Part shown: one piece after another, positions 20,061-23,309 of the stretch
Layout: the number at the start of each line of letters is the position of its first letter
Position numbering within the stretch: position 1 is the stretch's first letter
DNA from: Bacteroidota bacterium
GTDB taxonomy: Bacteria > Bacteroidota > Bacteroidia > Chitinophagales > Chitinophagaceae
Length of the DNA stretch: 64,000 bases
Reading direction: 5' to 3'
NCBI GenBank assembly: GCA_018267925.1
Contig: JAFDXO010000165.1
Coordinates: 1-64,000 of the forward strand
Position numbers and translations under genes: made by a program
The notes under the pieces: generated by a model
Told to the model about the DNA's origin: nothing
Database searches by the model: none
Seen by the model: the letters and a program-made list of their open reading frames with translations, nothing else

Positions 20061-21332
20061 TTAATTTACACTGCAAACTAAACCTAAACTGGCCGCATCT
20101 TCAAAGAATGAAGGATAAGATTTTCTTACCGAAAGTGAATCGGAAATGGTAACCAATCCCTCTGCTCGAAGGCTTCCGATAGTGGCTGCCATAACGATTC
20201 TATGATCGTTAAAACCATTCACAGGAAAGGATTTTAGGGTATCTTGACCTTCAATAATCAAAGAATTATTTTCTACTTTATGCACCACCCCAAAGGCGGA
20301 TAACAGAGCTTTGATACTTTGTTCACGATTACTTTCTTTATACCATAAGCGGTGTACACCATGAAGCAAACTCATGCCTTTGCTGCAAGCAGCTAAAACA
20401 GAAACAATAGGAAACAAATCGGGTGAATCAGACAAGTCAACTTCAAAAGCAGATAGATTGCTTTCCGTTACCAAAACAGTATTGTTTTTTGAAAAGCAAT
20501 TAGCACCAGCCTTTTGTAGGATTTCTATGATTTTTCTATCTGCTTGACATGAAGCAGGATTCAAATTTTCTACAACTACATTACCATGAATAGCCCCTGC
20601 TACTAACCAATAGGCTGCACTGCTCCAATCTCCCTCAATGGTTATTTCTATCTCCTTTTGTGTAGAAATGGATGAGGTTGATATAGTAAACCGTTCATAG
20701 TTCTCATGTCTAATATGCTTTCCGAAATGTGCCAGAATATCTAAGGTCAAATCAATATATGGTTTGCTTTGAAGAGCTTCAACCGTAATCGTAATTGTTT
20801 CTTTGGGAGCATAAGAAAGAGCATATAGAAGTCCTGTCAAAAATTGAGAACCATTTCTCCCATCCATTCTTAAATCTTTTGGTTGCAAGGGACCTTGAAT
20901 AGTAAAAGGTAAACAATTTAAATGACTATTAAAAGTTACTTTAAGTGCATTTAAAACAGGCTCTATATCCGGCATTGGTCGAGATAATAAGTTGCCTTGT
21001 CCGTTGATTAAAACGGGTTGATTACTCATGGAAAGAATAGGCGTAAAAAGTCGTGCAGACAAGCCGCTTTCGCCACAATCAATTTGTGAAACAGCATTCA
21101 ACTTGCCGGTAGATTGAATCACTGTTTTGTGTGTATTTGTTTTTAAAACTTGGGCACCACAATGTTCAATAATGGTAAGTGCTACTTGGTCATCGGCGGA
21201 AGTGCCGGGATTGAAAATGGTGGTAGAACCTTGATGCAGTAAGGCTGCGGCACACACACGCTGCATCATGCTTTTGGAAGAAGGAGCTATAATTTTTCCA
21301 AAAACAAAAGAAGGATTAATAGTGACTTGCAT
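20061..21332 (-). CDS. aroA: 3-phosphoshikimate 1-carboxyvinyltransferase (EPSP synthase)
   Basis: 423 residues from the ATG at 21332; the frame continues four codons upstream to a TTG. It transfers enolpyruvyl from PEP to shikimate-3-phosphate. Motifs: IIAPSSKSMMQRVCAAALL (substrate Lys-Ser-x-x-x-Arg region), DCGESGLSARLF (usually a GNSGTxxR-type loop), GNGSQFLTGLLYAL-like DGRNGSQFLTGLL, and the C-terminal FPVNGFNDHRIVMAATIG. The start overlaps the end of aroB by 17 bases, which implies translational coupling. The loop GESGLSAR differs from the E. coli GNAGTAMR, a variation common in distant homologues. Confidence 0.93.
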   Translation of the reverse strand: MQVTINPSFVFGKIIAPSSKSMMQRVCAAALLHQGSTTIFNPGTSADDQVALTIIEHCGAQVLKTNTHKTVIQSTGKLNAVSQIDCGESGLSARLFTPILSMSNQPVLINGQGNLLSRPMPDIEPVLNALKVTFNSHLNCLPFTIQGPLQPKDLRMDGRNGSQFLTGLLYALSYAPKETITITVEALQSKPYIDLTLDILAHFGKHIRHENYERFTISTSSISTQKEIEITIEGDWSSAAYWLVAGAIHGNVVVENLNPASCQADRKIIEILQKAGANCFSKNNTVLVTESNLSAFEVDLSDSPDLFPIVSVLAACSKGMSLLHGVHRLWYKESNREQSIKALLSAFGVVHKVENNSLIIEGQDTLKSFPVNGFNDHRIVMAATIGSLRAEGLVTISDSLSVRKSYPSFFEDAASLGLVCSVN

Positions 21333-22356
21333 CTTTAAAATCAATTAACACTTGTCGAATAAGCTCAAAATTGAGGTTCACTATACTTCCTTTTCCTAAT
21401 TTTTCAAGAACAATAAAGTCTAAATGATTGCCGGTTCTTTTTTTGTCACCCATTAGCACCCGCATGACTTCCTCTACTTGAAAATCGTTTTGAATTGGCA
21501 ATTGGTAATGAACTAAAATCTGTTGTACTCGTTCTGTAACATGTGCTGACAAGCCAGTTACTCTTTCTGAAATTTTACAAGCTATCAACATACCGATGCT
21601 TACGGCAAACCCGTGTGGCAATAAGCAAACAGACTCTAAGGCATGTCCGGCGGTGTGCCCAAAATTCAAGAGCTTTCTCATTCCACGTTCTTGTTCATCT
21701 GCGAGCACTGTACGGTTTTTCCAGTCCACACAATTCCGAATAATGGAAGATGCCAGTGATAAGTTGTGATGATATTCGGAAAGATGGTGTTTGAACAAAT
21801 TAGTAAACAAGGTTTCATCAAAAATGCAGCCATATTTTATAGCCTCAGCAAAGCCATTGCTCCATTCCCTTTGCGGTAATGATTTTAAAAATAAAGGATC
21901 GAAAATTATAAATTCCGGTTGACGAATTACGCCAATCATATTTTTAAAGAGTCCGAAATTGACACCATTTTTACCGCCAATTGACGCATCAACCATTGCC
22001 AAAAAGGTAGTAGGCACAAAACCAAAATGAAGACCTCTCATGTAGATGCTGGCAACAAATCCAGCCATATCAGTTATCACACCGCCACCAACTGCAATCA
22101 ACAAACAACTTCGATCAACATTTAGTTGTTGCAATCGTGTTATAATTCGTTCCACTTGCACCATTGTCTTATGTTGCTCTCCGGATGGAACAATAACTGT
22201 AGATTCTGCCGGAAATAAATCGGGATATAAACCTGAAACAACATCATCTGTCAGATATACTGTTCTTCGTTCTTTCTTGAATCGTTCAATACTTTGAAAG
22301 ACTTCCTCAAAAAGATAAGTTACCGATCCGGATGGAAAATCAACGTTGTAAAACAT
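21316..22356 (-). CDS. aroB: 3-dehydroquinate synthase
   Basis: 346 residues if started at the ATG at 22356; an ATG at 22416 would add 20 residues of poor fit to the family. It converts DAHP to 3-dehydroquinate with NAD and a metal ion. Motifs include VIVPSGEQHKT, the NAD loop VGGGVITDMAGFVAS, PTTFLAMVDASIGGKNGVN, EAIKYGCI and the metal ligands in LNFGHTAGHALE. It leads the aroB-aroA-aroC unit. Its upstream region (22357-22478) is shared with the divergent XRE/S24 regulator, so that regulator's operator could also affect the aro genes. Confidence 0.93.
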   Translation of the reverse strand: MFYNVDFPSGSVTYLFEEVFQSIERFKKERRTVYLTDDVVSGLYPDLFPAESTVIVPSGEQHKTMVQVERIITRLQQLNVDRSCLLIAVGGGVITDMAGFVASIYMRGLHFGFVPTTFLAMVDASIGGKNGVNFGLFKNMIGVIRQPEFIIFDPLFLKSLPQREWSNGFAEAIKYGCIFDETLFTNLFKHHLSEYHHNLSLASSIIRNCVDWKNRTVLADEQERGMRKLLNFGHTAGHALESVCLLPHGFAVSIGMLIACKISERVTGLSAHVTERVQQILVHYQLPIQNDFQVEEVMRVLMGDKKRTGNHLDFIVLEKLGKGSIVNLNFELIRQVLIDFKDASHY

Positions 22357-22438
22357 CGCAACACAAAGTTGGTAAATGTTCTCCAATAGCTTTCTAATCC
22401 TTTCTAATTCTAACACATTCTTTATAGTGAGGGTATCG

Positions 22439-22446
22439 TACCTTTG
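22439..22446 (+). promoter_or_regulatory. -7 promoter element TACCTTTG for the XRE/S24 regulator
   Basis: Exact TAnnTTTG match. Its last base is the first base of the inverted repeat at 22446-22483, so transcription would begin inside that repeat. No clear -33 element is seen. Confidence 0.6.
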
Positions 22447-22483
22447 ACACTATTAGTCACAATCATAAACGTGTAATAGTGTC
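22446..22483. promoter_or_regulatory. Candidate self-operator: 10-bp inverted repeat over the start codon
   Basis: GACACTATTA at 22446-22455 and TAATAGTGTC at 22474-22483 are exact reverse complements, 28 bases apart start to start. The left arm abuts the -7 element and the right arm covers the GTG start at 22479. This placement is what an autorepressor operator would show. Confidence 0.6.
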
Positions 22484-23309
22484 TGATTTTAAAAACCATA
22501 TTTGCTACTGGGCAGGAAATTTAAAAATTTTGAGAAGTAGATTAGGGGTCAATCAAGAGCAACTGAGTGAGCAACTAAATATTTCTCGTTCTAAGCTCAA
22601 TGCGCATGAAAACGGACAAACCATCAATCCGACAATTGAAGATTTATTCCGCTTTTCCTCTTTTTATAACATGAGTATTGATACCCTTTTACGAACTGAC
22701 CTTTCTAAACTTTCCGATCGCCAATTGATAGAATTGCAATCTGCAAGTGAAGAATTTATTTCCGGCAAAAAGTTGAAAGTGCTTGCTACTACTGTTACCC
22801 CTGACAATCGTGATAATATTGAATTTGTACCCCGAAAAGCCAGAGCCGGCTATCTTTCGGGCTTTTCTGATCCGGAATTTATCAGCCAATTACCAATTTT
22901 TCATTTGCCTCATCTTCCGCTCGATCGTAAGTTTAGAATGTTTGCTACGGTTGGCGATTCCATGTTTCCCATTCCGGAAAATAGCTTAGTGATTGGAAAT
23001 TATATAGAAGATTGGCAAAACATAAAAATTGATACACCCTGCATTGTAATAACTAAAGAAGATGGTATTGTTTTCAAATTAGTAACCAATCAAATTGCAG
23101 CAAATAGGTCGCTATTATTGCGTTCGCTGAATCCTCAATATGCACCCTACGAAGTCAATGTGGGAGATGTGTTGGAGGTGTGGCAATTTGTAAATTATAT
23201 AAGTGATACTATTCCTGCGGGAGAATTGTCTTTAATGGAAATGTCTCAATCATTGATTGACATAAAAGCTACTTTAGACAAATTGATTAAAGAAAAGCAA
23301 GCTTTATAA
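22479..23309 (+). CDS. XRE-family regulator with LexA-like S24 domain
   Basis: 276 residues with a GTG start. Residues ~15-70 are a Cro/CI-type helix-turn-helix (LGVNQEQLSEQLNISRSKLNAHE). Residues ~155-250 are an S24 serine-protease-like domain with Ser161 in GDSMFPI and Lys200 in VFKLV, the LexA dyad. A possible self-cleavage site Ala123-Gly124 lies in KARAGYLSG just before it. By family this would be a repressor that cuts itself on a signal, perhaps DNA damage through RecA. An inverted repeat overlaps its promoter and start codon. It runs divergent from aroB. No phage genes are near, so it looks like a chromosomal regulator, not a prophage repressor. Confidence 0.88.
   Translation: MSDFKNHICYWAGNLKILRSRLGVNQEQLSEQLNISRSKLNAHENGQTINPTIEDLFRFSSFYNMSIDTLLRTDLSKLSDRQLIELQSASEEFISGKKLKVLATTVTPDNRDNIEFVPRKARAGYLSGFSDPEFISQLPIFHLPHLPLDRKFRMFATVGDSMFPIPENSLVIGNYIEDWQNIKIDTPCIVITKEDGIVFKLVTNQIAANRSLLLRSLNPQYAPYEVNVGDVLEVWQFVNYISDTIPAGELSLMEMSQSLIDIKATLDKLIKEKQAL

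Follow-up and report, generated by a model that had tools for sequence, protein, structure and literature searches.

A divergent non-canonical LexA as the probable SOS repressor of a Chitinophagaceae-like bacterium, with paired operator sites 23 bp apart at its own gene and at recA

In the Bacteroidetes, the SOS response is run by S24 repressors with CI-like N-termini, which act through either CTAA-N5-TTAG or GGA-N5-TCC (Sanchez-Osuna et al. 2021, PMC8565304). The first of these dyads has been validated as an SOS motif of the family by EMSA and by mitomycin C induction, and two or more instances of the motif per promoter are mentioned (PMC8565304). Diverged dyads have been noted in paralogues, and the family also includes divergent Weeksellaceae regulators, with the site TTAC-AAATT-GTAA in Elizabethkingia anophelis (PMC8565304). 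According to the model put forward in that work, SOS regulators acquire a new motif when the original gives way to a diverged duplicate (PMC8565304). The bacterium considered here is Chitinophagaceae-like, near Taibaiella and Flavipsychrobacter, and the DNA analysed is a 64,000-nt stretch of its genome (the window). With a probability of about 0.86, we regard the regulator encoded there as the SOS repressor of this bacterium, a divergent non-canonical LexA acting as two dimers on paired sites 23 bp apart at its own gene and at recA.

The regulator gene (22479..23309, + strand) encodes a 276-aa protein composed of an XRE helix-turn-helix (HTH), a linker, and an S24 autopeptidase domain, the non-canonical LexA type. 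The HTH DNA-binding domain (residues 14-72; 22518..22694, +), located by Pfam and by the predicted fold, is of the XRE type (HTH_19, 9e-10; HTH_3, 5e-8), and the winged-helix N-terminal domain of LexA (PF01726) has no match in the protein. Peptidase_S24 reaches only 0.056 in Pfam, below the cut-off; the S24 identity is secured because Gly124, Ser161, and Lys200 are invariant and because of the predicted fold. The predicted self-cleavage bond joins Ala123 and Gly124 (22845..22850, +), and the catalytic residues are Ser161 (22959..22961, +) and Lys200 (23076..23078, +). Gly124 and the two catalytic residues are invariant throughout the alignments, Ala123 is near-invariant in alignments A1 and A2 and invariant in A3, and Ala123, Gly124, and Tyr125 are invariant in 49 sequences. 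The predicted fold (mean pLDDT 79) has an all-helical N-terminus; its best matches in the PDB are a lambda/186 CI hybrid and LexA, and its HTH matches SinR and DdrO. The Bacteroidetes non-canonical LexA proteins are characterized by a CI-like XRE HTH without a wing, joined to an S24 domain, and by an Ala-Gly bond with a Ser-Lys dyad; both are found here, the latter invariant in the 49 sequences.

Inspection of the sequence places the -7 box of the regulator promoter (TACCTTTG, of the TANNTTTG type) at 22439..22446 on the + strand; in orthologues the same box abuts operator site 1. Two perfect arms, GACACTATTA (22446-22455) and TAATAGTGTC (22474-22483), are separated by a gap of 18 nt and overlie the start region of transcription as well as the start codon, a GTG that falls within the right arm (22479-22481). 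No further copy of the arm pair is present, at up to 3 mismatches, in the window or in the whole genome (chance expectation in the window, 0.00). The initial annotation had pointed out the arms, the -7 box, the overlap with GTG, and the XRE/S24 protein with its Ala-Gly bond, Ser161, and Lys200, and all of these were confirmed. The repeat spans 38 bp, which is 23 + 15, and the G of the -7 box is the first base of its left arm; it is therefore a double site whose inner halves have decayed, GACACTATTAGTCAC-8-ACGTGTAATAGTGTC. Site 1 (22446..22460, +) has a perfect outer half, GACAC, and a degenerate inner half. An 8-bp spacer (22461..22468), which makes the centre-to-centre distance 23 bp, leads to site 2 (22469..22483, +), which contains the start codon and has a perfect outer half, GTGTC, and a strongly degenerate inner half with 1 of 5 bases matching. 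This register was taken from the -7 box and the outer arms; in an unanchored scan the window's own best 23-bp pair falls in another register and scores at chance level.

The double site is clearest in the relatives. Of 99 related genomes, 86 contain homologues of the regulator; another 80 loci were retrieved, and 71 non-redundant upstream regions, read in gene orientation, were compared. In many of these promoters both 15-bp dyads are complete, as in GATTAGAAATTAATC-8-GATTACAATATAATC. When the regions are scanned without an anchor for four half-sites that resemble one another, a sharp peak appears at 23 bp start-to-start (28.2 of 71 regions, versus 3.3 for the shuffled null). With site 1 anchored on the final G of the -7 box, there are 26 high scorers at 23 bp versus 0-2 at every other spacing from 16 to 35. 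The operator is a pair of 15-bp dyad sites with an exact centre-to-centre distance of 23 bp, and the G of the -7 box is the first base of site 1. As in the non-canonical LexA family, a dyad-N5-dyad lies in the regulator's own promoter across the clade; it is partly degenerate in the window. The registers of the sites in the genus were set by eye, and those at recA were recovered blindly by a motif model. The likely start codon within site 2 is GTG in the window genome (G000), in its closest sister species (G004), and in G001 and G002, and ATG in G005. The inverted-repeat operator of the initial annotation was right in substance, but it is this pair of sites rather than one long palindrome; the absence of the repeat upstream of orthologues had been named beforehand as a finding that would overturn it, and the repeat is present there in diverged form. 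In another species of the comparison (G003), the regulator promoter (upstream of L007, C54:27450-27506) may hold three sites in 23-bp steps, with two overlapping paired matches.

The sister species G004 carries the same double site as the window with a different interior, both arms being perfect and the loop between them altered. Outer arms that are perfect and common to two species, around a diverged interior, would also fit one wide palindrome of which only the outer arms are bound, by a single dimer or by a tetramer with flexible linkers, the inner halves being dead. However, full dyads are present at both sites in relatives, and in the window genome itself recA has fuller dyads at both sites than the regulator's own promoter; a wide palindrome is thus an unlikely explanation. 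From the relatives we infer that two full dimers may bind the double site of the window, weak as its inner halves are.

The recA gene was located in six genomes of the genus, and its upstream regions were scored at 26 spacings with a motif model whose training set comprised regulator and polymerase promoters but not recA. The best pair upstream of recA stands at exactly 23 bp in all six, the window genome included, and its score is reached by 0-2 of 300 shuffles across the six genomes and by 0 of 300 in the window genome. The 3.47 Mb of the latter contain no other exact match of the paired core pattern. The pair is ~290 bp upstream of the recA start, where it overlaps a -7 box in the intergenic stretch that follows ribosomal protein genes. 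The core pattern of a single site has 8 matches in the window genome, of which the one at recA is the only intergenic one, the rest lying inside ORFs; in G004, single-site searches gave non-coding matches without a convincing partner and others in coding sequence. A genome search for further two-arm sites, as recommended in the initial annotation, yielded one weak match, which is the recA operator, and otherwise nothing above control.

The occurrence of the motif at recA, over a -7 box so far ahead of the start codon, also bears on whether the repeat works as DNA at all. With GTG in the right arm, a 10-bp stem could form if transcription starts at or before the left arm, and this hairpin at the 5' end of the mRNA might mask the start codon (translational autocontrol). 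However, besides the motif at recA, complementarity between the outer arms is poor in several relatives, G002 and G031 among them, and translational autocontrol seems very improbable beside a DNA operator. The recA locus of the window genome (L183, C35) seems to have a second, proximal -7 box (TATATTTG), kept in the sister species, which suggests a damage-independent promoter. Its recA leader is ~160 bp longer than that in G004.

The same 23-bp pair precedes an unlinked Y-family polymerase in G001, G002, and G006, and umuDC in G003. In addition, at 47 of the 80 homologous loci the regulator and DinB or ImuA-ImuB are arranged divergently, DinB lying mostly 80-600 bp away (two at ~2.3 kb) and ImuB 700-820 bp away; in more distant relatives one operator region may be shared by the divergent regulator and polymerase. 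The same operator upstream of SOS genes (recA in 6/6; polymerases in relatives) is again a property of the non-canonical LexA family. Given the pair at recA, the pairs before Y-family polymerases, and the divergent DinB or ImuA-ImuB, the regulator is very probably the SOS repressor. The proposal in the initial annotation of an autorepressor that responds to DNA damage thus draws support from the orthologue promoters, the matching recA operator, and the linkage to error-prone polymerases. The promoter of umuDC, the only Y-family polymerase of the window genome, has no detectable pair. With a pair at recA, none at umuDC, and the other core matches inside ORFs, the detectable regulon of this genome consists of the regulator and recA, and thus seems very small. 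In both sister species the umuDC promoter contains a perfect palindrome, GCCTAAAATAGGC, inside a conserved block (L040 near 967-979, C105:62950-62962; L039 in G004). A second regulon based on this palindrome was rejected, since genome-wide enrichment was absent; another repressor may control umuDC here.

The CI-like N-terminal domain and the viral structural matches might suggest a CI-type repressor stranded from a prophage or mobile element, which would have an immunity operator of its own and no part in the SOS response. A prophage CI is expected within a prophage, with phage genes under its control, whereas the neighbours here are housekeeping genes (the aro genes and frr) and the operator is found also at recA. 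Moreover, there is one copy of the regulator in each species of the genus, its homologues are as widespread as noted above, and the phage-type S24 protein of the genome is encoded by a separate gene, on a contig other than that of the window. We therefore give a stranded CI very little credence.

The affiliation of the regulator can be seen from 20 of its homologues, which come from further genera within the same family of bacteria (34-38% identity). Each of the 20 has an exact CTAA-N5-TTAG in the promoter of its own gene, 10 have two sites 20-24 bp apart, and together they form a fully supported clade separate from that of the window regulator. The motif of the latter, GACAC-N5-GTGTC, is neither of the two published ones; because the published family includes members with diverged motifs, it represents a variant and not an exclusion. 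Thus, the regulator most likely belongs, as a divergent member, to the non-canonical LexA family of the Bacteroidetes, a placement made by sequence through the CTAA-N5-TTAG homologues. When the window genome was searched with the regulator, no closer LexA paralogue was found, and the single match was weak. This match is a second S24-type regulator of ~276 aa (L169, C149:4500-9066), on a contig that, judged by eye, encodes phage-tail-like proteins. In another genome (G017; C12 and C55), there are two regulators of the window type, with 55% and 46% identity to that of the window, possibly a duplication in progress.

The divergent neighbour of the regulator is aroB (21316..22416, - strand; Pfam DHQ synthase), whose start at 22416 is 62 bases from the regulator GTG. 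This proximity favours a shikimate regulator that would control aroB from the intergenic region common to both genes, and the initial annotation had suggested that the protein may set shikimate gene expression. However, among 30 homologous loci aroB adjoins the regulator only in G000 and G004, and the operator is retained in species without this adjacency. Nor does the aroB strand of the shared region contain an exact -7 box or a conserved near-match over the operator, TANNTTTG not being conserved there. With adjacency in two species only and no conserved -7 box for aroB, the suggestion is unsupported and a shikimate role most improbable; the place of the regulator beside the aro genes looks like a coincidence, and aroB is not counted in the regulon.

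For the SOS repressor, we infer DNA binding, cooperativity, cleavage, and induction as follows. In undamaged cells, two dimers would probably sit side by side on the 15-bp sites 23 bp apart, in the style of a lambda operator. At the regulator gene they would cover the start codon and the point where transcription begins, and at recA the -7 box of a promoter, so that transcription is blocked. RecA filaments on single-stranded DNA would then trigger self-cleavage at Ala123-Gly124 through the Ser161/Lys200 dyad, and this cleavage would release the regulator gene and recA.

The genus looks like a case of motif switching: each genome has a single diverged regulator, a paralogue of the usual kind was not found, and the new motif already stands at recA. 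It is possible, at somewhat less than even odds, that a diverged paralogue, linked elsewhere to ImuA-ImuB or DinB, replaced the CTAA-N5-TTAG LexA in this genus and took recA under a new motif, with two cooperating dimers on a double site of strict 23-bp spacing. If such a takeover is true, it offers a natural, datable case of SOS-regulator replacement. The fixed double site suggests cooperative, CI-like repression, which is absent from the main text of the 2021 paper (PMC8565304). The paired 23-bp spacing is likewise not described in that main text, the literature search having covered open PMC papers; a supplement may report it. Paired dyads 23 bp apart provide a simple rule for finding SOS operators that have drifted past recognition.

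Like the CTAA-N5-TTAG group (PMC8565304), the window regulator combines a CI-like HTH with an S24 domain and conserved cleavage residues, has a dyad-N5-dyad in its own promoter and recA and error-prone polymerases as targets, and comes from the same phylum and family of bacteria. Unlike that group, it belongs to a separate clade with the motif GACAC-N5-GTGTC, has a strict 23-bp pair after its own -7 box and a longer N-terminus, and apparently governs only itself and recA. The Weeksellaceae regulators (PMC8565304) are similar in having a diverged dyad with an N5 spacer and, as is usual in the family, a divergent error-prone polymerase, but their site sequence is different, and the main text of that paper gives no paired 23-bp arrangement. 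Another S24 regulator, UmuDAb of Acinetobacter, has a wide two-site SOS operator with a different layout (PMC11332147). Escherichia coli LexA is alike in its autopeptidase domain and functional logic; it differs in its winged HTH, which belongs to another N-terminal family, and in its single CTGT-N8-ACAG boxes. Lambda CI shares the fold of HTH and autopeptidase domain, and the adjacent dimer sites of its operators, about 23-24 bp apart, can be likened to the 23-bp pair. Unlike lambda CI, however, the window regulator is chromosomal, conserved, and linked to recA, and most promoters of its kind contain two sites rather than three.
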